Part shown: piece after piece, positions 1-13,423 of the stretch
Layout: every line of letters begins with the position of its first letter
Numbering within the stretch: position 1 is the first letter of the stretch
DNA from: Gemmatimonadaceae bacterium
Lineage (GTDB): Bacteria > Gemmatimonadota > Gemmatimonadetes > Gemmatimonadales > Gemmatimonadaceae
DNA length: 52,067 nucleotides
Direction of reading: 5' to 3'
Assembly: GCA_022843265.1 (NCBI GenBank)
Contig: JALHNZ010000023.1
Coordinates: 1 to 52,067, forward strand
Made by a program: the position numbers and the translations under genes
Notes under the pieces: generated by a model
Seen by the model: the letters and a program-made list of their open reading frames with translations, nothing else
The model's database searches: none
What the model was told of the DNA's origin: nothing

Positions 1-1034
1 AGGTCTTCCAGATGCCACACCAGCTCCGGCAAGATACGTTCCATATCGCCGGCTTTGAGCACCACCTGGTAGTGCTCGGTTTTGTACGCGTTAGAGAGCA
101 TTTCGGCCTTCGCGCGCTCGTCAAAACCAAGCTCGAGACCTGATGCGGACGACAAATCAAAACCGGCTGTAAAGCTCTTGACGTTCGGGAACCGGCGTGC
201 GGTGACACAGGTGATTGCACCCGAATCAATACCGCCGCTCAAATACGTGCCAACTTCGACGTCGGCTTCCATCTGTCGATTAACGGCGGCCTGAAACAGG
301 CGATCGAGCTCTTCCACGTACTCCGCTTCGCTCACCCCCTGCTCCTGCCGGAACTCATAGTCCCACCACCGACGCACGGAGAAGGTGTCGGGGCGTCCCA
401 TGGTCAGCGTGATCGCGTGCGCACGAGGGAGCAGCTTCACTCCGGCAAACAGTGTTTGGTCGGAGAAGACGTTCTGAAACGTGAAATACTCGCCGAGTGC
501 CGCAGCGTTCACGCGTACCGACATGGACGGATGCTGGAGTAACGACTTGACTTCAGATCCGAACAGCAGCGTGTCGCCGTCCCACGTGTAGTAGAGCGGC
601 TTCACACCAAACCGGTCGCGCGCGAGTAACACGCGCGACTCGCGGGAGTCCCAGAGCGCAAAGGCGAACATACCGTTGAACTTCTCGAGACATTTCACGC
701 CCCACGCGCGATAGGCCTCGATCAGTACCTCGGTGTCGCTGTGCGTTCGAAAAGTTGACCCCAACTTTTCAAGTTGCCGCCGGAGCTCCCGCCAGTTGTA
801 AATCTCGCCGTTGAACGTGACCACGATCGTACCGTCTGCCGACCGCATCGGCTGATGACCGGCCGGCGACAGGTCAACGATCGCCAGACGCCGATGCCCA
901 AATCCCACGCCGCCGTTCGTCCACTGGCCCTCGCCGTCCGGTCCGCGGTGGCTCACGATGTCGGTCATGGCACGGAGCACGCCTGGATGAACCGGTGCAC
1001 CGTGCGCGTGCACGACTCCGGCTATTCCGCACAT
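1..1034 (-). CDS. asnB: Asparagine synthetase (glutamine-hydrolysing), 3' end cut by window
   Basis: Transfers ammonia from glutamine to an AMP-activated carboxylate, normally aspartate. About 344 residues are present; the C-terminus lies beyond the window start. The reverse-strand reading begins MCGIAG, so Cys2 would be the N-terminal nucleophile of the class II glutaminase domain, which fixes the start at 1034. Further family signatures are SHRGPDGEG, FNGEIYN, ARDRFGVKPLYY and the ATP pyrophosphatase loop YLSGGIDSG (around 200-230). It is divergent from the glycosyltransferase operon that starts at 1438, and a second AsnB is encoded at 4494. In polysaccharide loci such enzymes often amidate sugar carboxylates instead of making free asparagine; that role here is inference. 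Family assignment is firm. Confidence 0.93.
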   Translation of the reverse strand, partial: MCGIAGVVHAHGAPVHPGVLRAMTDIVSHRGPDGEGQWTNGGVGFGHRRLAIVDLSPAGHQPMRSADGTIVVTFNGEIYNWRELRRQLEKLGSTFRTHSDTEVLIEAYRAWGVKCLEKFNGMFAFALWDSRESRVLLARDRFGVKPLYYTWDGDTLLFGSEVKSLLQHPSMSVRVNAAALGEYFTFQNVFSDQTLFAGVKLLPRAHAITLTMGRPDTFSVRRWWDYEFRQEQGVSEAEYVEELDRLFQAAVNRQMEADVEVGTYLSGGIDSGAITCVTARRFPNVKSFTAGFDLSSASGLELGFDERAKAEMLSNAYKTEHYQVVLKAGDMERILPELVWHLED

Positions 1035-1437: not shown

Positions 1438-3333
1438 ATGACCAGTTCTTCCGCCTCGACCTCCGCTCCCAATCAGATCGACAGCGTCCAACTCACGTCG
1501 GACGGCACGCCCCGCTTTGTGGTACCGGGCCGTACTGAGCACCCTGACTGGGCGCTCGCCGCTGCGCTTGAGGCCGCAGGGGGGGTGGCGGCCGAGGTGA
1601 GAGTCTTTCTCGACGAGCAGCTCAACACCGGCGACGTGTTGATCGACCTCGCACCAGGACTCGGCTTTGTTGCCCTCAGCGCCGCGACCGCGCCGAACGG
1701 TGTCGCCACGGTGTTCGTCGCCGGGCTCGACGCCGCTGATCTGACCGCCCTGCAGGACGCCGCGGCCGACGCCGGCGCATGGGTGGAGGGCATGTCGAAC
1801 GAGCCGTGGGCGGAGATCGCTGACGCGCTCGACTCGCGACTTGAACATGACGGCGGCGTATTTGTGCACGTCGCCGCGTCGGATGTCGCACTCGTGTGCG
1901 AGCGCCTCCGCGAGCTTTGCGCATCCGGTCGCTTGCTCGCGCTGTGCGTGAGCGATGCGATCGATAGCGCGCAGTGGCCGACTATCCACGCGGCGCTTGA
2001 GCAGGCAGACCTCTCGGCGTGCGAACTGGCTGAACAGGATGGTGCAGTAGTGCTGGTGCCGGTGCACCAGGCTCCGACCTCTGCGTTGATCGCTGTGCCG
2101 GCCAGCCTCTTTGCGCCCGAACCGCGCCGTGACAACGCCGCTGAAGCGCGCGACGCGTTGGTCACGCGCGACGGTTATGAAGACGCAATTTTTTCAGCGT
2201 TGCCGGCAGACGAAGCAAGCGTGTTTACGCCGAAGCCACCATGGGATGCCATGCGAGACGGGCTTCATCTGAGCGCACCGCATACCCGAACCGGGTACGG
2301 TGTGACCGGCGCGCATTTGCTGCGCGCACTGCAGTCGCAGGGTATTCCAGTGTCGTTTACGCCAATTGGCGGTGTGGACCGTTCCATCACACACAACGCC
2401 TCGCTTGATCAGGCGTTGCACGTGTCGGCCGCGTTTTCTGCAGAGGCGCCGAGTGTGCGCCTGGCGCAGGCATTCGACCTCGCGCAACACGCAGGCCGCG
2501 GACTACGCATTGGCTTCACAATCTTTGAGACCGACGCGTTCAGCGCGGTTGAGCTTCAGCATCTGCGCTTTCAGGACGCGGTGCTCGTGTGCACACCGTG
2601 GGCTCGCGAGGTGTGCTACGCCAACGGACTCTCGGATCGCCCAGTTCACATAGTGCCATTGGGCGTTGACCGCGACATCTATCATGAGCACGTGCAACCT
2701 GTTCGCACGTGGACGGAGACGGTCTTTCTTCAAGTCGGCAAGCTGGAAGCGAGAAAGGGTCAGCGCGAACTGCTGCGCGCGTTTGAAGCGGCATTCACGC
2801 CCAAGGATGATGTACGGCTCGTACTGGCGTGCCACAATCCCTTTATTGGTGAGGACGCGTTCAACGCTGCGCTCGCGCCCTTTCGCCGATCGCCGATGGC
2901 TGAACGCATCACGATTCTTGGTCAGGAGCTCGCAACGTCGCGCGATGTGGCCGCTTTGATGGCGGCGGCCGATTGCGGCGTGTTTCCCGCGCGCGCCGAA
3001 GGATGGAATCTCGAAGCGCTCGAAATGCTGAGCATGGGGAAAGCCGTAATCGCAACGGCTGCGACGGCCCACACTGCCTTCTTGAATCAGGACAATGCTC
3101 GACTCGTTGCAACTGACGCACTCGAGCCAGCGCTGGGCGGAACCATCGCCGGACATTGGCCGGCGTGGGGCGCATCGCAACACGACCAGTTGGTTGAACA
3201 CCTGCGCACGATTCACGCGAAGCGTGCACAGGGTGCACTGGCGCAGAACGCTGCAGGATTAGCGACCGCACGTGCGCACAGTTGGAATGCGAGCGCGGTG
3301 GCACTGTTAAATGCGCTGTCGCACATCGCGTGA
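1438..3333 (+). CDS. Glycosyltransferase family 4 with degenerate methyltransferase-like N-terminus
   Basis: A 631-residue protein. Residues about 265-620 form a GT-B fold glycosyltransferase of the GT4 type: an acceptor-side half beginning near HTRTGYGVTGAHLL, a donor-binding half from VFLQVGKLEARKG, the EX7E element EGWNLEALE, and a nearby GKAVIAT. The N-terminal 215 residues resemble a SAM methyltransferase of the FkbM type (VLIDLAPGLGFVALSAA), but the glycine-rich SAM motif is degraded, so that half may be non-catalytic. It is the first gene of a rightward operon followed by a second GT4, AsnB and GT2. Proximity to flagellin suggests flagellin or surface glycan synthesis (inference). No good Shine-Dalgarno precedes the ATG. 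Confidence 0.8.
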   Translation: MTSSSASTSAPNQIDSVQLTSDGTPRFVVPGRTEHPDWALAAALEAAGGVAAEVRVFLDEQLNTGDVLIDLAPGLGFVALSAATAPNGVATVFVAGLDAADLTALQDAAADAGAWVEGMSNEPWAEIADALDSRLEHDGGVFVHVAASDVALVCERLRELCASGRLLALCVSDAIDSAQWPTIHAALEQADLSACELAEQDGAVVLVPVHQAPTSALIAVPASLFAPEPRRDNAAEARDALVTRDGYEDAIFSALPADEASVFTPKPPWDAMRDGLHLSAPHTRTGYGVTGAHLLRALQSQGIPVSFTPIGGVDRSITHNASLDQALHVSAAFSAEAPSVRLAQAFDLAQHAGRGLRIGFTIFETDAFSAVELQHLRFQDAVLVCTPWAREVCYANGLSDRPVHIVPLGVDRDIYHEHVQPVRTWTETVFLQVGKLEARKGQRELLRAFEAAFTPKDDVRLVLACHNPFIGEDAFNAALAPFRRSPMAERITILGQELATSRDVAALMAAADCGVFPARAEGWNLEALEMLSMGKAVIATAATAHTAFLNQDNARLVATDALEPALGGTIAGHWPAWGASQHDQLVEHLRTIHAKRAQGALAQNAAGLATARAHSWNASAVALLNALSHIA

Positions 3334-3343
3334 CGTGCAGGCA

Positions 3344-4486
3344 ATGAATGTGAACCGCATGCGACTGCTGACGATTGCCTTTGCCGGAACGGACCAGGGA
3401 GGCGTGCACCGAAAGCTCGGCGAGCAGGTGCGCGCGATTCGGTGTATGGTGCCGGATACCAAATCGTTGGTGTTTGTTGATACACGCATTGCACCAGCGC
3501 CAGCAAACATGCCGTACGACATTATCGATCTCGTGGGCGGCGGTTTCGATCCGGTCAGTCGAGCGCGCGCGTTTCAGCTATGTCGAGAGGCAGTGTCCGT
3601 GTACCAGCCGGATGTTGTGTACCTGCGGTATCCGCTCTACGACGCATACGTCGAAGAGTTCGTCCGCACATCACCGCCGGTCGTGTTTGAGATTCAAACG
3701 AAATTCGATCTGGAAATGCCACCCGAGGCGGGCGCTCTCGAACGCGCCTGGGCTAAACGGATTTTGCCGTTGACCGCTGGGGTTGTGGCAGTCACGCCGG
3801 AGATTCTCGCGTACGAGACGGATCGCGCTGGCTGGAACATTCCAGGTCACGTGATGTCCAACGGCGCCGATCCCATCGCGATTCCATTCGCCATGCCATC
3901 GCTCGCCACGGATCGCGTGGATGTGTTGTGCGTGGCGTCGTTCTACGTGTGGCACGGCATTGATCGAGTGATTTGTGGAATGGCCGCCGAGCCCGATGTT
4001 CACGATTTGCACCTACATCTCGTAGGTGACGGACCCGCGCTGGCACCACTACTGACACTGGCCCGCGACCTTGGCGTTGCCGATCGTGTGCACGCGGCCG
4101 GTCTCCAGTCTTTTCATGAACTGACGCCATTCTTCGCGCGAGCACACCTGGCCCTTGGTGTGCTCGCTCCGCAGCGCAAAGGCTTGACCGAGCTCTCGGC
4201 GCTCAAACATCGTGAGTATGCATTGCGCGGGGTTCCGTTTGTTGCGGCGGGCCATGACATTGACTTTGCGCCCAACCTGCCGTGGCTGCGCACTGTATCG
4301 TCAGATGACTCACCCATATCGCCGCGTATGTTGCGCGCGTTTGCGATGTCGTGGACCCATGAAAAGCGTCGTCGACAGATTCGCGCGTGGGGTGAAGCGA
4401 ACGTAAGCTGGGCCGCCAAGATACCGCCGTTGCTGGAGTTTCTTGCAGCGCGGCAGCGGTCTGTACCACTCGTTGGCGCGGCGTGA
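3344..4486 (+). CDS. Glycosyltransferase family 4
   Basis: A 380-residue GT-B glycosyltransferase. Its N-terminal half carries short alpha/beta segments (LLTIAFAGTDQGGVHRKLGE); the C-terminal half is typical of donor binding: VLCVASFYVWHGIDRVI, LHLVGDGPALAPLL, VHAAGLQSFHELTPFF and KHREYALRGVPFVAAG. The start at 3344 (MNVNRM) lies 10 bases after the previous stop; an ATG at 3359 is also possible, and an upstream GTG at 3311 would overlap the previous gene. The next gene starts 7 bases after its stop, so the genes are very probably co-transcribed. Donor and acceptor cannot be told from sequence. Confidence 0.8.
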   Translation: MNVNRMRLLTIAFAGTDQGGVHRKLGEQVRAIRCMVPDTKSLVFVDTRIAPAPANMPYDIIDLVGGGFDPVSRARAFQLCREAVSVYQPDVVYLRYPLYDAYVEEFVRTSPPVVFEIQTKFDLEMPPEAGALERAWAKRILPLTAGVVAVTPEILAYETDRAGWNIPGHVMSNGADPIAIPFAMPSLATDRVDVLCVASFYVWHGIDRVICGMAAEPDVHDLHLHLVGDGPALAPLLTLARDLGVADRVHAAGLQSFHELTPFFARAHLALGVLAPQRKGLTELSALKHREYALRGVPFVAAGHDIDFAPNLPWLRTVSSDDSPISPRMLRAFAMSWTHEKRRRQIRAWGEANVSWAAKIPPLLEFLAARQRSVPLVGAA

Positions 4487-4493
4487 TCAGCTC

Positions 4494-6236
4494 ATGTGTG
4501 GAATAACCGGACTTCTTGACTTCACCCAAGGCGCAAACGCCGGAGCGATCGATGCGTTCACCGATGCGCTCGCGCATCGTGGACCGGATGGGCGTGGCAC
4601 GTGGTGCGCCGGCCCAGTCGCGCTTGGCCATCGACGGCTCGCAATTCTTGACCCATCGCCCGCTGGCGCATGCCCTATGGAGTATTGCGCGCCGGATGGG
4701 CAGCTGCTGCGCATCACGTTCAACGGCGAAGTTTACAACTTCCTCGAACTTCGTGCCGAACTCCAGCGTGATGGGTACGCGTTTCGCACCGATACGGACA
4801 CCGAAGTTGTAGTCGCGGCATGGCATCGTTGGGGTGCTGCGTGCCAGATGCGCTTCAATGGAATGTGGGCGTTCGCCATCTGGAACGACGTCACGCAAAC
4901 ACTCGTGTTATCACGCGATCGTTTTGGCGTGAAGCCGCTGTACGTGTACGGCTACGGCACAATGATCGCGTTCGCCTCCGAGATCAAAGCGTTTTTGGCG
5001 CTGCCTGGTCTCTCTCGACGATTAAACGCAGAAGCTGCGTCGGCGTTCTTCACGAATCCGAGTGCCTACGATGGCGTCAGCACCGGCACCGCGCTCGATG
5101 GTGTCATGCGCATGGCACCGGGCCACTCGCTCACCATCACCCCGCAAGGCACCACAGGATTCGAACGCTGGTGGGATACTTTAGCGCACATGCCTGCGGT
5201 TCCATCGCGCTACGAGGAGCAGGTCGCGCAGTTTCGCGCGCTGTTTCTCGATGCCGTGCGACTGCGCATGCGAAGCGATGTGGCGATTGGCACGTCATTA
5301 TCTGGTGGACTGGATTCGAGCGCCGTAGCATCGGCCATGGCGGAAGTTGCGCGCGCCAGTAGCAGCGCCGAACGCACGCGATGCGCAAGCGACTGGCAGC
5401 GCACATTCATTGCCACGTTCCCAGGTCATCAGGTCGACGAGCGTGCATTCGCCGATATGGTAGTGCAACACACAGGTGCATCGCCCCACTACTGGAGTTT
5501 TCACCCTGGCGCCGCGCTTCGCGATTTGCCGGCCAGCGTGCTCGCGCTTGACGACTTGAGCGCCGCCCCCGCAGTTCCGATTCTGAATATCTACCGGCTC
5601 ATGCGTGCGCATGGTGTGGTGGTGACCCTCGACGGGCACGGCGGCGATGAACTGCTCGCCGGCTACCCGTGGTACCGCGAGCTCGCGGCACACGATGTGA
5701 ACGCAGCGCTCAATCGCGACTTTCACATTACGCATCTGCCGTCGATTCTGCGCAACTACGATGGTTGTTCCATGGCGAATGGTGTGGAAGTGCGCTCGCC
5801 GTTTATGGACTGGCGTCTGGTGACGTACGCCTCGGCGCTTCCGGTCGCGGCGAAACTCTCACCCACGTATACCAAGCAGATTCTTCGAGATGCTCTGGTC
5901 GGTATTTTGCCAGATGGGATTCGTACGCGTGTCAGCAAGCTCGGCTTTGAGTCGCCATTAGTCGCCTGGGCGAACGGCGCACTTGGCCCCGTGTTGCTCG
6001 CCGCGAGCAAAACTGATGCGTGGCGGGAAGCGCCGGCCGCTGCACAGTCCGCTGCGGTGGCCTCGATTGTGGCTGAGCGATCACGCAGCCGCAGCTACAC
6101 CGAAGCGGATCGTGTCGCCGTCGCGTTTGCGTACCGCCTGCTCAACTTTGTGTTGTGGAGCGAGCACTACCTCGGTGCGGGCGATCGCATCACGCGCATG
6201 CTTGGTGGTGCGGCTCCACTGGCGCGCGCCGGATAA
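4494..6236 (+). CDS. asnB: Asparagine synthetase B-type amidotransferase (second copy)
   Basis: A 580-residue glutamine-dependent amidotransferase. The start is set at 4494 because it gives MCGITG with the catalytic Cys2; an in-frame ATG 51 bases upstream would bury the nucleophile and overlap the previous gene. The glutaminase domain (1 to about 190) has AHRGPDGRG, FNGEVYNF and SRDRFGVKPLYVYG. The synthetase domain has the pyrophosphate loop SLSGGLDSSAVAS and DGHGGDELLAGYPWY, and all visible catalytic motifs look intact. It sits between a GT4 and a GT2 in one operon, which makes amidation of a sugar acid or a glycan-linked carboxylate more plausible than bulk asparagine synthesis (inference). 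Confidence 0.92.
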   Translation: MCGITGLLDFTQGANAGAIDAFTDALAHRGPDGRGTWCAGPVALGHRRLAILDPSPAGACPMEYCAPDGQLLRITFNGEVYNFLELRAELQRDGYAFRTDTDTEVVVAAWHRWGAACQMRFNGMWAFAIWNDVTQTLVLSRDRFGVKPLYVYGYGTMIAFASEIKAFLALPGLSRRLNAEAASAFFTNPSAYDGVSTGTALDGVMRMAPGHSLTITPQGTTGFERWWDTLAHMPAVPSRYEEQVAQFRALFLDAVRLRMRSDVAIGTSLSGGLDSSAVASAMAEVARASSSAERTRCASDWQRTFIATFPGHQVDERAFADMVVQHTGASPHYWSFHPGAALRDLPASVLALDDLSAAPAVPILNIYRLMRAHGVVVTLDGHGGDELLAGYPWYRELAAHDVNAALNRDFHITHLPSILRNYDGCSMANGVEVRSPFMDWRLVTYASALPVAAKLSPTYTKQILRDALVGILPDGIRTRVSKLGFESPLVAWANGALGPVLLAASKTDAWREAPAAAQSAAVASIVAERSRSRSYTEADRVAVAFAYRLLNFVLWSEHYLGAGDRITRMLGGAAPLARAG

Positions 6237-6242
6237 CGCGCG

Positions 6243-8012
6243 GTGCACGAACGCAGCTATGGCGCCGATACTGCCTCGCGTTTGTTCGTGGGGATTCTTA
6301 CCTACAACGGGTTGCATCACACCGTACGCTGCCTCGATTCCCTGCGGGCGCACACGCAGGCACCGTGGCAGGCACTCGTGCTCGACAACGCTTCACGCGA
6401 CGGAACACCTGCGTATCTGCAGCAGCTCAATGACGAGCGACTTTCGGTGTATTGCAGTGATCAGAACCTCGGCGTGAGCGGCGGCCGCAACTGGCTGATT
6501 ACGCAACTTCTGCCGCAAATGCAAGACACCGACTGTCTCGTGCTGCTCGACAATGACATTGAGGTATTCGAAGGCTGGGACAGGCCATTTACGGAAGCTT
6601 TCGCCACGAATCCCGCACTTGGCGTCGCCGGCCGCTGGGCGTTCTCCATGCGCGTGCATAACACGTGGCGCGACATTCTCAGCGAGGATAGCGCGACATC
6701 CGGGCCGGTAGACACGGTGCAGGGATGTTGTTTCTGGATTCGCGGCGCGACAGCGCGAGAGGTTGGCCTGTTTGACGAAGCGCTCGGCGGATTCTGGCAC
6801 GAAGACGATGACTACTGTATACGCGCGCTCGTTGCGGGCTGGGATGTCCGCCGCGTCGGAACCGATGCGATCCTGCACCATGAGCACGGATCGGGGATGG
6901 CGGTACGTCCCGACAAGTTGGTGGGTTCCTGGCGCAACCAGTCGTATCTCGCGAACAAATGGCGTTCGATGAACGCGGTTGGCTTGCTGGGCGTACCGAC
7001 GAGGCCGATCGTCGACGAGTTGCAGCCCGTGTGTGATGCGATGTCGCAGCGTGTCAAACGACCTGTCCTTCGTACCGAACTGAACTCGGCGATCAACAGC
7101 GCGGCGCTCCTGATGCATGGCACGCTTGAGCGAGACCAGGCTGCCGCGCTCGCGACGCCGCTCGCCCGATTGATACTCGCCGACGCCACCTCGCGTGAAA
7201 GCGAATCGGCGAAGAAGGCCAAAGCCGTGTTGGATTGTATATCGGACACGGTGGCGACACGCCGAGCCAGCGCGCCCGTTGGTGCACCGTCTCGCGCCTT
7301 CAGCGGCGTGTGCACGCCCGACAGCTGGGACGATGCACGCTGGTCTGATGCATTTGCGCAAGGATTCAAGAACGGCAGCGGCATCGACTACACGTCGCGA
7401 ACCGAATCGATGTGGCGCGACGGGCAGCTATGGCATGCGCTACGAGCGACGGGCGCATTAAAGCGCGACGCACGCGTACTCTTTGTGGGGCAACCGTTCG
7501 AACCGCTCATCGCCGCGCTGTCATATCACGTGCGAGAGCTCGTGATCTGTGATCGCGAGCCGTTGAACGACGAACAGGTGCTCGGTCGAGCGCAACAAAT
7601 GCTCGGCAATGCTCAACGCACATTTGCCAGCTGGCCGCTGGCGCACACCACCCTGTACGATCTTGTCGTGTGCGCGAATGTCTCACGGTACGCACGTGCG
7701 GCTGACGTACCAGGCTTTCTCCGCACGCTTGCGGCCAACGCCGGAGAAGGTTCGATCGTTGCGGTGGGCGTGTCTGTCCGTGTGTCTGGACCTGTGGACG
7801 GAACGTGGGTCGAGCTCGAGACGCTGGCACATGATCACGTGCTACAGTCGTCCAACCTTCGACGAGTGGGCGGATTCAACGCAGCGGTGAGCGACGAGGT
7901 ACTGCGCGCGGCTGTGCCCGAGCGACTGCGCGCATCACTGCGTCCTGGGCTCGCTCGAGCGATTGCCTCGCACTGCGTGACGATGGCCACACTGGTCGCG
8001 AAGCGCGTCTGA
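6243..8012 (+). CDS. Glycosyltransferase family 2 fused to methyltransferase-like domain
   Basis: A 589-residue protein with a GTG start 6 bases after the AsnB stop. Residues about 15-260 are a GT-A fold GT2: VGILTYNGLHHTVRCLDSL, VLDNASRDGT, a DXD-type metal site in LLDNDIEVF, and the acceptor-side GGFWHEDDDYCIRAL. Residues about 365-580 look like a class I SAM-dependent methyltransferase core (RVLFVGQPFEPLIAALSYHV, ELVICDRE, DLVVCANVSRYAR), but the canonical GxGxG loop is altered. The helical stretch between them has no recognised family. Its stop abuts the stop of the converging TPR-GT9 gene with no intervening base. A role in building a methylated glycan next to flagellin is inferred. Confidence 0.8.
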   Translation: MHERSYGADTASRLFVGILTYNGLHHTVRCLDSLRAHTQAPWQALVLDNASRDGTPAYLQQLNDERLSVYCSDQNLGVSGGRNWLITQLLPQMQDTDCLVLLDNDIEVFEGWDRPFTEAFATNPALGVAGRWAFSMRVHNTWRDILSEDSATSGPVDTVQGCCFWIRGATAREVGLFDEALGGFWHEDDDYCIRALVAGWDVRRVGTDAILHHEHGSGMAVRPDKLVGSWRNQSYLANKWRSMNAVGLLGVPTRPIVDELQPVCDAMSQRVKRPVLRTELNSAINSAALLMHGTLERDQAAALATPLARLILADATSRESESAKKAKAVLDCISDTVATRRASAPVGAPSRAFSGVCTPDSWDDARWSDAFAQGFKNGSGIDYTSRTESMWRDGQLWHALRATGALKRDARVLFVGQPFEPLIAALSYHVRELVICDREPLNDEQVLGRAQQMLGNAQRTFASWPLAHTTLYDLVVCANVSRYARAADVPGFLRTLAANAGEGSIVAVGVSVRVSGPVDGTWVELETLAHDHVLQSSNLRRVGGFNAAVSDEVLRAAVPERLRASLRPGLARAIASHCVTMATLVAKRV

Positions 8013-9422
8013 TTACCCGGTGGTGAGCAACCGCAGTCGCACGTGCTCCACGACGGAGCGCCAATCGGCACTCGCGCGCTGACGCATCAATTCCACGGTC
8101 GGATACCACGCGGATCGCGTGCCGCGCAGTCCCCAGCGCCAGTCTGGTACGTATTGCAACATCACCAGCGTTCGCACACCCATGGCACCGGCCAGATGCG
8201 CGATCCCTGTGTCTGTGGTGATCAATAGATCAAGCGCATCGAGTTGCGAGGCGGTGTCGAGCCAGTCCGACAATGGACCAACGGTGCCGACGTGTTCGGG
8301 CAAAGTGGATACATCAACGCCTTGCTGCAACGCGACAATCGAGATGTTGGGCACGGCCGCGAGCTGTTCCAGCAAAAGCGCGAACGCCGTTGGGCTCAGA
8401 TCACGCGTGTAGCGACCCGGGAATGCGGCGTTGCCCGACCAGACGAGCCCTACGCGACGAGCCGCGGACGTGACGTGGCCGGATGACACGGGTGCACGCA
8501 GGTACGGTACACGAGCCGCCTGCACATCACCGTCAAGCCCAAGTCGATGCGGCAGCGAGAGCAGCGGAACGTGAAAGTCCGTCTCGACAACCGTACCGCG
8601 CGCGACGGCATCAATCCCGTTTGCCACAAGGAGTGCGACTGCCTGGGCATGACACTCGACGATTACGCGTGCGGCGCCACGCTCGGCCAGCAGCGGCACA
8701 AAGCGCAGAAACTGAAACTGATCGCCCACGCCTTGTTCAGCCGTCACAAGTATTGACGTGTGCTGCAGCGCTTCGCCATGCCATGGTCGCGCACCGGTTG
8801 TCGGCACTGGAAGTGGTCGATGTTCGAAGAGCGCCCAGCCATGCGCCGATGGGCGTTCAATCAGCGAGGTGTAGGCCGCCTGCACGCGCGTGGGCCCGTG
8901 ATTTGGTCGCACTTGCTCGGCCTGCTTGAGCCATCGTCGAGCGCCGATCAAATCGCCAAGATCATGGCGAACCTGCGCCGCCGTGAGAAGAAAGGCGGCC
9001 TGCCTGGGCGCCAGTTGCGCTGCACGTTGGGCGAGCGGCCACGCGTCTGCTACGCGACCTTGTGTGCGGAGCGCGCCAGCGAGCGCTGAAAGCGCGGCTG
9101 GATCCTTGGCGTGAGACTCCACGACTCGTTCAAGGCAGACGGTCGCTTCAAGCGGCGCGCCGGACTCAAGCAGTGCGGTACCCAGAGCGTATCCGGCCGT
9201 GCTCTCCTGCCAGTCGCCGACCGCAAACGCATCGAGCAGTACGGCACGTCGGCTCACGCCATCGTCTCGCAGTGCGTGCACGTTCGCCAACGCAATCGCG
9301 ATCGAAACATCGGTTGGCGCTTCGGCGCGCGCTTGCGCAAAGGCTGAGGCGGCAGCGGAAAGATCCCCGGCCGTGAGCGCCGCCTCGCCAGCGAGCAAAG
9401 CACGCACCAATGCCGCGCTCAC
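8013..9422 (-). CDS. TPR protein with GT9-like glycosyltransferase domain (FlmG-like)
   Basis: A 469-residue protein. The N-terminal ~170 residues are TPR-like helix pairs (GDLSAAASAFAQARAEAP, AALSALAGALRTQGRVADAWPL). The C-terminal half is a GT-B domain of the heptosyltransferase/GT9 type: LVTAEQGVGDQFQFLRF, VGLVWSGNAAFPGR and LLITTDTGIAHLAGAMG. The GTG start at 9422 has an AAGGA Shine-Dalgarno 7-8 bases upstream. The TPR-plus-GT architecture matches FlmG of Caulobacter, which binds and glycosylates flagellin, and this gene is divergent from flagellin. That assignment is inference; TPR-GT9 proteins also act on other substrates. No nonulosonic acid biosynthesis genes are in the window, so the donor sugar is unknown. 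Confidence 0.8.
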   Translation of the reverse strand: MSAALVRALLAGEAALTAGDLSAAASAFAQARAEAPTDVSIAIALANVHALRDDGVSRRAVLLDAFAVGDWQESTAGYALGTALLESGAPLEATVCLERVVESHAKDPAALSALAGALRTQGRVADAWPLAQRAAQLAPRQAAFLLTAAQVRHDLGDLIGARRWLKQAEQVRPNHGPTRVQAAYTSLIERPSAHGWALFEHRPLPVPTTGARPWHGEALQHTSILVTAEQGVGDQFQFLRFVPLLAERGAARVIVECHAQAVALLVANGIDAVARGTVVETDFHVPLLSLPHRLGLDGDVQAARVPYLRAPVSSGHVTSAARRVGLVWSGNAAFPGRYTRDLSPTAFALLLEQLAAVPNISIVALQQGVDVSTLPEHVGTVGPLSDWLDTASQLDALDLLITTDTGIAHLAGAMGVRTLVMLQYVPDWRWGLRGTRSAWYPTVELMRQRASADWRSVVEHVRLRLLTTG

Positions 9423-9561
9423 AACCGCCGTCCTTCTATATGAGCGGGATCAACGCGAGGGGCGAGCATGGCAAAATGCACGATGCACGCACGTTCGGAC
9501 GCGCCACGTAACGGTCGGTTCCAGCACTGTGAGAGCGCAAAAACTCGGTGAATCAAAACGC

Positions 9562-9588
9562 TCAAGTTCCTCGCCGATGTGTCGATAA
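9562..9588 (+). promoter_or_regulatory. Sigma-28 (FliA) promoter of flagellin
   Basis: TCAAGTTC (9562-9569), an 11-base spacer, then GTCGATAA (9581-9588). Against the sigma-28 consensus TAAAGTTT-N11-GCCGATAA this is 6/8 and 7/8 with exact spacing. Transcription would start near 9595, leaving a leader of about 70 bases before the flagellin ATG. Position and match make this the best supported promoter in the window. Confidence 0.8.
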
Positions 9589-9667
9589 AACACTCTGACC
9601 GCGATCCACTTCCCGGATCCGGACGAGGCACGGATGCCTCAATCGACCATCACGGAGGATAGTCACC

Positions 9668-10423
9668 ATGAAGATCAATACGAATGTCGGCGCGCTCGGC
9701 GCCTCCCGCAACCTGTTCATGAATACGCTGGCCGCCGAAAGCAGCATGCGTAAGCTGAGCTCGGGCCTTCGCATCAGCCGCGCGGCAGACGACGCCGCCG
9801 GTCTCTCGATCGCGAACCGGTTGCGTACGCAGAGCCGCTCGCTCGTGCAGGCGTCGAACAACGCCCAGCAGGGCAACGCGATGCTGCAGATCGCGGAAGG
9901 TGCAGCGCAGGTTGTGCAGAACATCATCGAGCGTCAGAAGGAACTGCTGGTGCAGGCTGCGTCGACGGGTAACAACGGTTCCGTGTCGGCCACGCTCATG
10001 ACGGAAGTTTCGACGCTCGGCGCAGAAGCCACGCGTATCATCGGCGCGACGAACTTCCAGGGTACCAACGTGTTCGCGTCGCTGTCTTTCCAGGTGACGG
10101 ACTCGTCGGGCGGTACGATTTCGGTTGGTGCGGCCCTGACCTACGCGTCGCCGACCGACCTCGCTGGTGCAGATACGGCGCTCGCAAACGTGAACTCCAC
10201 GTTGGCCTCGATCGGTGCCGGACAGAACGTGCTTGACTACACGGTGACGAACCTCAAGAACGCCGTCGTGAATCTCCGCGCAGCGGAATCCTCAATCCGT
10301 GACGTCGACATGGCCGACGAAATGGCGAACTACACGAAGAACAGCGTGCTCCAGCAGGCCGCGACGGCCATGCTTGGACAGGCGAACCAGTCGAGCCAGG
10401 GCATTCTGTCGATCCTGCGCTAA
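9668..10423 (+). CDS. fliC: Flagellin
   Basis: The filament subunit, 251 residues, exported by the flagellar type III system and polymerised outside the cell. The N-terminal D0/D1 region is typical (INTNVGALGASRNLF, LSSGLRISRAADDAAGLSIANRLR), as is the C-terminal D1/D0 region (SSIRDVDMADEMANYTKNSVLQQAATAMLGQANQ). The central surface domain is only about 60 residues, so this is a short flagellin without large D2/D3 insertions. A GGAGG Shine-Dalgarno lies at 9654-9658, 9 bases before the ATG. It is preceded by a sigma-28 promoter and followed by a stable hairpin and then fliD. Several Ser/Thr residues in the middle could be glycan sites for the enzymes encoded upstream (inference). Confidence 0.97.
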   Translation: MKINTNVGALGASRNLFMNTLAAESSMRKLSSGLRISRAADDAAGLSIANRLRTQSRSLVQASNNAQQGNAMLQIAEGAAQVVQNIIERQKELLVQAASTGNNGSVSATLMTEVSTLGAEATRIIGATNFQGTNVFASLSFQVTDSSGGTISVGAALTYASPTDLAGADTALANVNSTLASIGAGQNVLDYTVTNLKNAVVNLRAAESSIRDVDMADEMANYTKNSVLQQAATAMLGQANQSSQGILSILR

Positions 10424-10505: not shown

Positions 10506-12569
10506 ATGACTACACCGATTGCGAATTTCAGCGGGCTGCAAAGCGGCATTCAGTGGAACGATGTGGTTGACTCCATTGTAAGGGCCGACGAAGTGCGCAT
10601 GGTTACACCCATCACGCAGCAGCTTGAAAAGCGAACGGCAGAGCGCGCCGCCTGGACCGAGTTTCAAAAGCTCGTTTTCAACTTGAACGAAAGTTCGCGC
10701 GCCGTGCGTATTGCCGGTTTTGGTGGCTTTCTTGCCACTGCACCCAAGAGCCCTGCGTCTGGGCAGACGTTGTTTAGCGCCACGGCATCCAACCTCGCCG
10801 AACCCGGCCGCTATCGTGTAGAAGTCGTGCAACTTGCCGAAACCGCCAAGCTTGGCGGAAAGGCGGTTGCTGATCGCGCTACGGCACTCAATCTGACCGG
10901 CGATTTTGCAATCAACGGCACGTCGATCTCTATCGATGCCGCCGATTCATTGCAGGCGATTCGTGACAAGGTCAACGCTGCGAACACTGGTCCATCGGCG
11001 ACCGGAGTGAGCGCCAGCATTTTGAACGATGGCACGACAGGCGGGCGCCTGGTGCTGACTCGTTCCACTGCCGGATCGGACGGCATTTCGCTGACCGACG
11101 GCACAGGTGGAATCGCACGCGAGCTCGGGTTTCTCGATTCTCGGACCAAGCCGATTTCATCAACGACGGATGCGATTGCTGCGGCGCTGGGCATTGCCGT
11201 CTCTCCGCCACCGGCGTCGATCCGCGTTGGTGACAAGCTGATTACGGTGGATCTCAGCACCGATTCAATTTCGTCGATCGTGGCGAAGATTCAGGCCGCC
11301 GGTGGTCAAGCAGCTACCGAGACCATGCCGTTTGGCGACGAGACGCGCTACCGACTGGTTGCTGATGGCAATGTGCAGGCGGTCAGCGGCGATGCCAACA
11401 GTGAGGCGGTGATCAGCGCCCTCGGTTTTGCGGCCGGTTCCACCAGTGCTGTACGACAGGTGAGCGTGAGCGGTGCCCTCAGTGATGCGGGTGGCACACC
11501 GGCGACGGCGTCGACTGCGTTGGCAGGACTGCGCCTGAACGGTGTTGATGCAGCCATTGCCGCCGGCGATGCGATCAACATTCGCGGCACGCGTGGCGAC
11601 GGCAGTGTGGTCAATATCGGTATTGCCATTGATCCCGGCGAAACTGTGCAGGACCTGCTCAATAAAATCAATGATGCCACAAGTGGGTTTGGCGCGGGAA
11701 CGCGCACCGCGACGGCGTCGATCGGCGCTGATGGCAAGATTCGCCTGGCGGATGCAACGGGCGGTTCATCGCGCCTGTCATTTTCGATGGACATTGTGCG
11801 AGCCGACGGAAGCACGGGGTCGCTCGGTACGTCCAGCGTAGAAACCGCGGGGCGTGCGCGCGAGTTGCAGGCCGGCCGTGACGCCATCATCGTGGTCGAT
11901 GGCACCGAGTATGTGCGCAACACGAACTCGATTACCGACGCCATTCCGAATGTTACGCTTTCGCTCTCTGCTGCCGAAGCTGGTACTACAGTGGATCTCG
12001 ACATCTCGCGCAACGTGGATGGCGCGTCGGATGCCGCCAAGAAGTTAGTGGACTCGTACAACGCCGTGCGCACGTTCTTCGATGAACAGCGTCAGGTGGA
12101 TGCGCCGCTCTATAGCAACTCGTTGTTGCGTGGCGTGGTGGAGAGTTTTACGGCGTCGTTGCGTGTTGACGTCACCGGGAACGCAACCTACAACCGGCCG
12201 ACGTTGGTTGGCATGACGCTTGACCGAAATGGCCGCCTCACCTTCGATACAGCAAAGTTCAAGGAAGCGCTCAATTCGGCGCCGAAAGAAATCGAATCAC
12301 TGTTTGGATTGATGGGACTAGGTGGTGCGTTCGTCACGTCGACGGACAAAGCCACCGGCTTCAGCGAAGGCACCATCAGTACGCAGCTGCGCAGTCTGTC
12401 GGAATCGTCAACGCGCCTGACGGCACGAGAGGCGGAAGCAAAGCGGCGGCTCGAGCTTCGTCGCGCATCCCTCGTGGCGCAGTTCACGCAAATGGAAAGC
12501 GCACTGGCCAGGCTGAACTCGCAGGGCACGGCTCTCCGCGGCTTGATGGGTGCCTCGCAGTCAAACTGA
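10506..12569 (+). CDS. fliD: Flagellar filament cap protein FliD (HAP2)
   Basis: Caps the growing filament and folds arriving flagellin. At 687 residues it is considerably longer than the common 400-500. The FliD N-terminal domain (about 1-110) has FSGLQSGIQWNDVVDSIV and VTPITQQLEKRTAERAAW. The middle has repeated beta-rich blocks of the flagellin hook-IN type (SIDAADSLQAIRDKVNAA, IAIDPGETVQDLLNKIND). The C-terminal domain (about 500-687) has YSNSLLRGVVESFTASL, GRLTFDTAKFKEALNS and a terminal coiled coil (QFTQMESALARLNSQG) typical of FliD. The ATG follows GGGAGG closely. It probably shares the flagellin transcript by read-through. Extra middle domains explain the length. Confidence 0.93.
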   Translation: MTTPIANFSGLQSGIQWNDVVDSIVRADEVRMVTPITQQLEKRTAERAAWTEFQKLVFNLNESSRAVRIAGFGGFLATAPKSPASGQTLFSATASNLAEPGRYRVEVVQLAETAKLGGKAVADRATALNLTGDFAINGTSISIDAADSLQAIRDKVNAANTGPSATGVSASILNDGTTGGRLVLTRSTAGSDGISLTDGTGGIARELGFLDSRTKPISSTTDAIAAALGIAVSPPPASIRVGDKLITVDLSTDSISSIVAKIQAAGGQAATETMPFGDETRYRLVADGNVQAVSGDANSEAVISALGFAAGSTSAVRQVSVSGALSDAGGTPATASTALAGLRLNGVDAAIAAGDAINIRGTRGDGSVVNIGIAIDPGETVQDLLNKINDATSGFGAGTRTATASIGADGKIRLADATGGSSRLSFSMDIVRADGSTGSLGTSSVETAGRARELQAGRDAIIVVDGTEYVRNTNSITDAIPNVTLSLSAAEAGTTVDLDISRNVDGASDAAKKLVDSYNAVRTFFDEQRQVDAPLYSNSLLRGVVESFTASLRVDVTGNATYNRPTLVGMTLDRNGRLTFDTAKFKEALNSAPKEIESLFGLMGLGGAFVTSTDKATGFSEGTISTQLRSLSESSTRLTAREAEAKRRLELRRASLVAQFTQMESALARLNSQGTALRGLMGASQSN

Positions 12570-12629: not shown

Positions 12630-13025
12630 ATGTCGTACGCGAGTCAGGCTGCCAACTATCGTGAGCTGGAAATTTTGAGTGCGTCGCCGGAGCGTCTGGT
12701 CGTGATCATATTCGACGCGCTCGTCGTGCAGCTTGAGCGGGCGCGCATTGGCACCGAGCGCAATGATCTTGAGATGCAGGTGGTAGGGCTCACCAAGGCC
12801 CGCGCGATTCTCGGCGAACTGCTGGCCACCCTCGATTTCGAGAAGGGTGCGGAAGTCGCCACGCAGTTGGCCGATCTGTACCAGTACATGCTGGCCGAGC
12901 TGGTTGATGTCGGACAGCGAAAAGATGTGGTGATGCTGCGTCGACTGGCTGGCATCGCGTCCACGCTGCGTGACGGCTTCAGTGGGGCATGTGAGCAGTT
13001 GCAGGCCGTCAAGATGTCAGCGTGA
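12630..13025 (+). CDS. fliS: Flagellar export chaperone FliS
   Basis: A 131-residue helical cytoplasmic chaperone that binds the flagellin C-terminus and prevents early polymerisation. It shows the family pattern: an N-terminal YRELEILSASPERLVVIIFDALVVQLERA, then the four-helix bundle with ALVVQLERARIG, KARAILGELLATLDFEKG and LADLYQYMLAELVDV. An AGGA Shine-Dalgarno precedes the ATG. Placement directly after fliD is the standard fliC-fliD-fliS order. The stop overlaps a GTG of the next reading frame, but the next gene more likely starts at 13055. Confidence 0.93.
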   Translation: MSYASQAANYRELEILSASPERLVVIIFDALVVQLERARIGTERNDLEMQVVGLTKARAILGELLATLDFEKGAEVATQLADLYQYMLAELVDVGQRKDVVMLRRLAGIASTLRDGFSGACEQLQAVKMSA

Positions 13026-13054
13026 GTACGATGGATACGAGGAGGGTAATAGCC

Positions 13055-13423
13055 ATGGCCGAATCGTTCGAAGCGCTTGGGAACGATGTGTTGACCGCAT
13101 TGTCGAGGGATCCGGACACGGATGCCGACAAATCCAGCGAGTCGTCGCAGGTTGAGCTGCTGCTCGCGGAGCGCGACGCACTGCTCGCGGAGTTGACGGC
13201 GGCGCTGGCCGAGTCTGGTGCCCCGGTTCCAGCCGATGCATTCCAGCCGGTCGCGGCCGCGCTGTCTAATGCATCAACGAGTACGGCCACGTTGATCGCC
13301 AAGGTGGCGGATCGCACGGATGCGCTTCGTACCGCGCTGCGCGAGATGAGTCGCAGTGCGCAGGTAGCGGACGCGTACCAGAGCCCGAGCACGCACGCGG
13401 GGCTGATCAATGCGCGACGCTGA
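13055..13423 (+). CDS. FliT/FlgN-like flagellar chaperone candidate
   Basis: A 122-residue, mostly helical protein. The start at 13055 is chosen because AGGAGGG (13040-13046) lies 8 bases upstream; a GTG at 13022 overlapping the fliS stop is less likely. The central helix VELLLAERDALLAELTAALAE is the amphipathic helix seen in FliT and FlgN chaperones, and the C-terminus with an aromatic residue (VADAYQSP) near the end is also FlgN-like. The position after fliS is where fliT usually sits. Sequence similarity alone is weak, so the function (chaperone for FliD or hook-associated proteins) rests largely on context. Confidence 0.65.
   Translation: MAESFEALGNDVLTALSRDPDTDADKSSESSQVELLLAERDALLAELTAALAESGAPVPADAFQPVAAALSNASTSTATLIAKVADRTDALRTALREMSRSAQVADAYQSPSTHAGLINARR

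Follow-up and report, generated by a model that had tools for sequence, protein, structure and literature searches.

TPR-guided O-glycosylation of flagellin has FlmG as its studied example, an enzyme tied to pseudaminic acid, and in Caulobacter crescentus FlmG is a 596-aa protein encoded in the flmGH operon (PMC7591256). Polymorphic flagellin glycosylation islands have been described in Pseudomonas aeruginosa and P. syringae; glycan genes are clustered beside the flagellin gene, their content varies between relatives, some islands carry rhamnose cassettes, and no TPR-GT9 enzyme is named in the portions consulted (PMC3958885, PMC3927599). The fusion of a TPR superhelix to a GT-B glycosyltransferase half is shared by OGT and SPINDLY. 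Transfer to protein is likewise carried out by TibC, which acts on an autotransporter with ADP-heptose.

At the locus described here, the FlmG-type layout occurs together with a polymorphic island like those of Pseudomonas (PMC3958885). It lies in the window, the whole stretch of DNA that was analysed (52,067 nucleotides from a Gemmatimonadaceae bacterium), which is an entire contig whose break falls inside the glycan island. An earlier note, made from the sequence alone, had proposed a FlmG-like TPR-GT9 protein divergent from the flagellin gene. The present data indicate that this 469-aa protein is very probably a flagellin O-glycosyltransferase, soluble and cytoplasmic, of the TPR-GT9 kind, and a way of working like that of FlmG is well supported by its architecture, fold, catalytic residue, distant homology to candidate FlmG orthologues and adjacency to fliC over 14 genera. 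The features of the locus are as follows.

3 to 1034, minus strand: second AsnB-like amidotransferase gene, cut by the contig end
1438 to 3333, plus strand: GT4 glycosyltransferase, 631 aa (Pfam)
3344 to 4486, plus strand: GT4-like glycosyltransferase, 380 aa (Pfam)
4494 to 6236, plus strand: AsnB-like glutamine amidotransferase, ~580 aa, start MCGITG (Pfam)
6243 to 8012, plus strand: GT2 glycosyltransferase, 589 aa, with a C-terminal extension, convergent with the TPR-GT gene (Pfam)
8013 to 9422, minus strand: TPR-GT9 protein (TPR-GT), 469 aa, candidate flagellin O-glycosyltransferase (Pfam, AlphaFold2 model, conserved residues)
9562 to 9588, plus strand: predicted sigma-28 type promoter TCAAGTTC-N11-GTCGATAA, aimed at fliC (pattern scan and alignment)
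9625 to 9640, plus strand: leader hairpin GAGGC-ACGGAT-GCCTC of the CsrA-site type, upstream of fliC (alignment)
9668 to 10423, plus strand: fliC, a short flagellin of 251 aa and the presumed acceptor (two flagellin Pfam domains above cut-off)
10506 to 12569, plus strand: fliD, filament cap (Pfam)
12630 to 13025, plus strand: fliS, flagellin export chaperone (Pfam)
13022 to 13423, plus strand: fliT-like gene (sub-threshold Pfam match)

Architecture and fold of the TPR-GT protein

The gene starts with GTG, a call backed by a similar start in the homologue of one relative (G003), and no promoter was recognised for it, the scan for sigma-70 promoters and terminators being empty. That a TPR half and a GT-B half are joined in one protein, as the earlier note had read it, is borne out by Pfam and by an AlphaFold2 model (mean pLDDT 92.8, pTM 0.89; confident along almost the entire length): the TPR superhelix occupies residues ~1-200 and the GT-B half residues 205-469, with TPR_19 and TPR_14 above cut-off and Glyco_transf_9 (PF01075) sub-threshold at 16.7 bits against a gathering score of 22, and the model has paired helices from residue 3 to ~199 followed by a Rossmann-type alpha/beta half. 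In structure comparisons with this predicted model, the GT half aligned with WaaC (Z 16.8, rmsd 3.1, 229 residues), WaaF (Z 16.6), TibC (Z 16.6) and a Veillonella GT9 protein (Z 16.3), the GT9 rows spanning 229-242 residues of the alpha/beta half at ~3.2 A. Judged by the model, the GT half is of the GT9-type fold, a GT-B fold like that of WaaC and WaaF over 229-233 aligned residues; unrelated TPR proteins score Z 13-16 on the TPR half. TibC, a dodecameric iron-containing protein O-heptosyltransferase (PDB 4rap, 4rb4), shares the fold of the GT half but has no TPR half in the aligned part. The top whole-length Foldseek matches were TPR plus GT-B proteins including the GT41 enzymes OGT and SPINDLY; however, their whole-length superposition is poor (TM 0.2-0.4), and the best alignments of the GT half by itself are with GT9 enzymes.

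Residues 222 to 469 align to WaaC 1 to 320. From this range and the WaaC sequence, D234 presumably falls on WaaC Asp13. This catalytic aspartate is invariant in all 92 homologous GT domains, R340 and H409 are retained in 30 of 30 rows of the family and D404 in 29 of 30, and the D-T-x-x-x-H donor motif (D404-T405...H409) is conserved in flagella-linked homologues.

The flagellin gene and its probable control

The TPR-GT gene and fliC are divergent across 245 bases (9423-9667), and this gap does hold the sigma-28 promoter that had been read there, pointing to fliC. The site has no mismatches, while the pattern at 3 mismatches allowed is expected 0.22 times per window, and its -35 part is TCAAGT in seven of the eight aligned sequences (the window and relatives) and TAAAGT in the remaining one. 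The hairpin in the fliC leader has a GGA loop, and its stem is preserved by paired changes in relatives (GGAGC/GCTCC in G007 and G012). Since csrA is present in the own genome and fliW on its contig C121, translation of flagellin is likely to be under CsrA-FliW control. As a marker of glycosylation, the Ser/Thr content of the insert in FliC was considered and rejected, as it gave no clean split between genomes with and without the TPR-GT (0.17 in G002, without the enzyme; 0.16 in G108, with it).

Linkage of the TPR-GT with fliC across the family

Linkage was surveyed in 179 genomes of the family, with FliC counted at E 1e-20 or better and the TPR-GT counted only when the match included the GT half, as the whole-protein profile matched almost every genome via the TPRs alone; a separate pattern scan of named genomes yielded three distant loci only. 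The TPR-GT was found in 60 and FliC in 80 of the 179 genomes, with both in 56, the enzyme only in 4, FliC only in 24 and neither in 95 (Fisher p 2.6e-22, a descriptive value that ignores relatedness). Among the 50 genomes with both on one contig, the two genes are divergent in 32 (gap of 162-510 bp), on the same strand in 16 (1.0-4.0 kb apart) and remote in 2. The 48 close cases are spread over 14 genus codes, and the adjacency that the earlier note had put forward as a check in relatives thus held. A second arrangement is found in genomes with longer flagellins (~364-371 aa), which carry TPR, GT9-type and GT4 fusions of 1028-1245 aa by open frame.

In at least one of the genomes counted with FliC only, G001, the TPR-GT is cut by a contig end. 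G002, of the same genus as the window, keeps fliC, fliD, fliS, fliW and flgL with the TPR-GT clearly absent, and the enzyme is therefore not needed for the flagellin locus in that species. There (L077 7649-11215), fliC is followed by a dTDP-glucose dehydratase (rmlB-like) gene and fliW-flgL; G002 is a natural comparison without the TPR-GT.

Where the enzyme is present it can differ widely between genomes whose flagellins are 93-98% identical: FliC is 95% identical between G003 and G004 and the TPR-GT halves 58-59%, and for G095 and G103 the values are 93% and 47-56%. However, fast divergence is only partly special to the TPR-GT, because FliD is also more divergent than FliC (71% over 114 aa, G121 against G103).

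A variable glycan island

The four plus-strand glycan genes at 1438-8012 (GT4, GT4, AsnB-like, GT2) converge on the TPR-GT gene, just as the earlier note described, and the last of them ends at 8012, the base adjoining the TPR-GT stop. The C-terminal region of this GT2 protein appears to resemble a degenerate SAM methyltransferase. With two AsnB-like enzymes encoded, the sugar may be an amidated one. In GC content the island is unremarkable, which gives no compositional sign of recent transfer. The AsnB-like pair of the window (3-1034, 4494-6236) is 74-77% identical to homologues in G105, a genome of another genus, whereas the TPR-GT pair is ~53%, a disparity in sequence that hints at exchange of cassette genes. 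The own fliW-flgL pair is on contig C121, where it follows the end of a GT4-like gene, and this contig may adjoin base 1 of the window.

In relatives the order is flgL-fliW-island-TPR-GT-fliC-fliD-fliS, and the slot between fliW and the TPR-GT is filled differently from genome to genome. It holds rmlA, rmlC and rmlD in G003 and G004; rmlA, rmlB and rmlC in G123; PseC, PseF and PseI above cut-off in G099; a NeuB-type synthase in G102 and, beside PseB and PseC (both above cut-off), in G113; DegT, Gfo/Idh, LuxC, LuxE, AMP-binding and GNAT proteins in G026, a set that has homologues in G106; and AsnB, GT4 and GT2 homologues, as in the window, in G105. In G107 and G114 the TPR-GT, a copy that falls in a sister subclade, is the sole glycan gene called between fliC and fliW-flgL. 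Glycan genes thus stand beside the flagellin gene with a content that varies among close relatives, as in the Pseudomonas islands, the rml genes of G003, G004 and G123 recalling the rhamnose cassettes there; the difference is that the constant element here is a TPR-GT divergent from fliC, and that the island ends at fliW-flgL. Because relatives keep the TPR-GT/fliC pair yet swap the neighbouring sugar genes, the filament probably bears different sugars in different species.

In two genomes (L040 340-10396; L065 3162-12070), the flagellin glycan slot encodes LuxC (acyl-CoA reductase) and LuxE (acyl-protein synthetase) along with an aminotransferase and an AMP-binding protein. Giant glycosyltransferase frames of ~2155-2330 aa stand beside rml genes (L038 10803-17318; L039 5937-12935), the one in L038 with GT4 and GT2 domains and a weak kinase-like match.

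With regard to the donor, the earlier statement that sialic-type sugar genes are lacking holds over the whole own assembly (95% complete, with the island cut by the contig end), in which no NeuB was found. The assembly's two NeuB Pfam matches were rejected as a sign of a nonulosonate pathway, both being DAHP synthases above the NCBIfam cut-off. Maf (PF01973) gave no match in the own genome, with a model that in this Pfam release matches archaeal controls only and so has little bearing on Maf. By analogy with G003 and G004, dTDP-rhamnose was considered as the own donor and is unsupported, as RmlC was not found in the same incomplete assembly; the contig break leaves room for it. The absence of NeuB agrees in part with the earlier suggestion that the donor may be new; however, relatives indicate ordinary activated sugars (dTDP-rhamnose, dideoxy-amino sugars and, in some, pseudaminic acid), and an NDP-sugar is favoured.

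Relation to FlmG

Two candidate orthologues, L133 (573 aa by gene call) and L134 (597 aa by gene call), served as stand-ins for FlmG in place of the Caulobacter sequence itself. They come from a Caulobacterales-like group, reached through a genome located with a CtrA query sequence; the GT profile matches 143 of the 199 genomes of that genome's family, and L133 and L134 are two weak matches among them. L134 is divergent from FlbT, FlaF and flagellin genes (NCBIfam names), and has a weakly matched cytidylyltransferase-like gene and PseH (by NCBIfam) downstream, in agreement with the published FlmG and its flmGH operon (PMC7591256). L133 is also divergent from the flbT-flaF-flagellin genes, with no cytidylyltransferase-like/PseH pair downstream.

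The window protein shares with these candidates the N-terminal TPR half, the C-terminal GT-B half and the catalytic aspartate, and homology extends over both halves (profile E 4.7e-37; BLASTP E 9e-13 and 24% identity over 430 residues against L134). However, in a quick SH-aLRT tree of 92 GT domains, with two FlmG rows, a short search and long branches, the FlmG candidates fall together with Azospirillum proteins (100*) at the end of a long branch, while the flagella-linked enzymes of the window's family, the window protein among them, form one set of 38 rows (96*). In addition, R240, R340, D404 and H409 are all kept in the window protein, all changed in both FlmG candidates and mostly changed in three Azospirillum neighbours. 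The window enzyme is divergent directly from fliC and not from flbT; FlmG requires pseudaminic acid, whereas the own assembly is without NeuB; and FlmG is needed for the filament, whereas the congener G002 keeps its flagellin locus without a TPR-GT. Because of its separate GT branch and the GT9 donor-site residues that the FlmG candidates have lost, the window protein is, on sequence grounds, apparently not a FlmG orthologue; "FlmG-like" thus stands as a description of the way of working, but not as a statement of orthology.

By the same evidence, the TPR-GT would have been recruited to flagellin separately from FlmG, and a difference in donor class (CMP-nonulosonate for FlmG, NDP-sugar for the window enzyme) is plausible. 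The latter reading is weakened by G099, G102, G113 and G119, which retain the GT9-type site although they have NeuB-type genes; in these genomes a different enzyme may add the nonulosonate. No report of flagellin glycosylation by a TPR-GT other than FlmG was found in the open-access library to which the search was confined. TPR-GTs form a large family that is not tied to flagella everywhere, with 27 matches in Azospirillum agricola and 11 in a Burkholderiales MAG, and no flagellin was recognised beside the sampled copies. Some of the TPR-GT9 frames of A. agricola (L088-L097) exceed 2000 aa, and none of those sampled adjoins a flagellin recognised with the window FliC.

Alternative explanations

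The distant homology over 430 residues and the shared architecture could also mean true orthology with FlmG, the TPR-GT then transferring a CMP-nonulosonic acid whose pathway genes escaped the assembly; NeuB or PseI do occur within the islands of some relatives of genus code g23, and the incomplete assembly and the cut island leave space for such genes. The tree and the intact donor site speak against this, and the NeuB matches in the genus's other four genomes are all as low-scoring as the own ones (best E ~1e-12), so that orthology is decidedly unlikely. The presence of several other glycosyltransferases in the island raises the reading that one of them, such as a GT4 or GT2 enzyme, starts the glycan and the TPR-GT contributes a later sugar, and the genomes with pseudaminic-type cassettes, whose fliC-linked TPR-GT keeps a GT9-type donor site, indicate that some sugars there are probably added by other enzymes. 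However, the fusion of TPRs to the GT fits recognition of a protein, and G107 and G114 fit an enzyme acting first and alone, albeit with the sister-subclade copy; a later role is considered unlikely.

As to the acceptor, the locus order in relatives links the TPR-GT to several flagellar genes and does not by itself single out FliC, and FliD resembles the TPR-GT in being more divergent than FliC. The enzyme might thus act on the FliD cap, on the FlgL junction protein or on several exported proteins of the filament, with FliC not its main target, but the divergent pairing in 32 genomes is with fliC itself, FliC is the abundant subunit, and FlmG, the nearest enzyme that has been studied, has FliC as its acceptor (PMC7591256), which makes this highly unlikely. 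Finally, GT4, GT2 and AsnB genes are common in polysaccharide clusters as well, and TPR-GTs are numerous in genomes without flagellin linkage, as would be expected if the cluster served a general surface polysaccharide (LPS, capsule) and its adjacency to fliC were historical. The linkage is nevertheless held across 14 genus codes and two arrangements, the island is bounded on both sides by flagellar genes, and the scanned genes of the window include none recognised as a transport or polymerase gene; a polysaccharide role is very remote.

A proposed model of flagellin glycosylation

Taking the TPR-GT as a flagellin O-glycosyltransferase allows a model in which the TPR superhelix would hold newly made FliC while the GT-B half, with D234 serving as base and the NDP-sugar bound in a donor site of R340, D404 and H409, would transfer a first sugar onto Ser/Thr. 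The target would probably lie in the short S/T-rich insert of FliC (residues ~137-181). The GT4 and GT2 enzymes of the convergent genes could then lengthen the sugar and the AsnB-like enzymes decorate it, after which FliS would carry FliC to export. A broader proposal, offered tentatively as quite possible but short of probable, is that flagellin glycosylation in the family is modular: a fixed, fliC-linked TPR-GT9 recruited apart from FlmG would add the first sugar from an NDP-sugar, and exchangeable cassettes reaching up to fliW-flgL would decide which outer sugar follows (rhamnose, pseudaminic-type, acyl-modified amino sugar, amidated sugar or none).

That the layout and the genomic setting recur on a separate branch, together with an intact GT9 donor site, suggests that TPR-GTs were recruited to flagellin more than once and with different donors. 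Donor choice and acceptor recognition are directly testable in natural sets of relatives that differ in cassette, carry the enzyme by itself or lack it, and TPR-GTs offer protein-specific cytoplasmic glycosyltransferases for glycoengineering of laboratory strains. Further, the TPR-GT gene is repeated in tandem in some genomes: three copies are divergent from fliC in G007 and G130 (L044 10167-14430; L075 12919-17218), as also in G131, partly on another contig, and two copies occur in G012 and G030. Each tandem copy may serve a different site or sugar.
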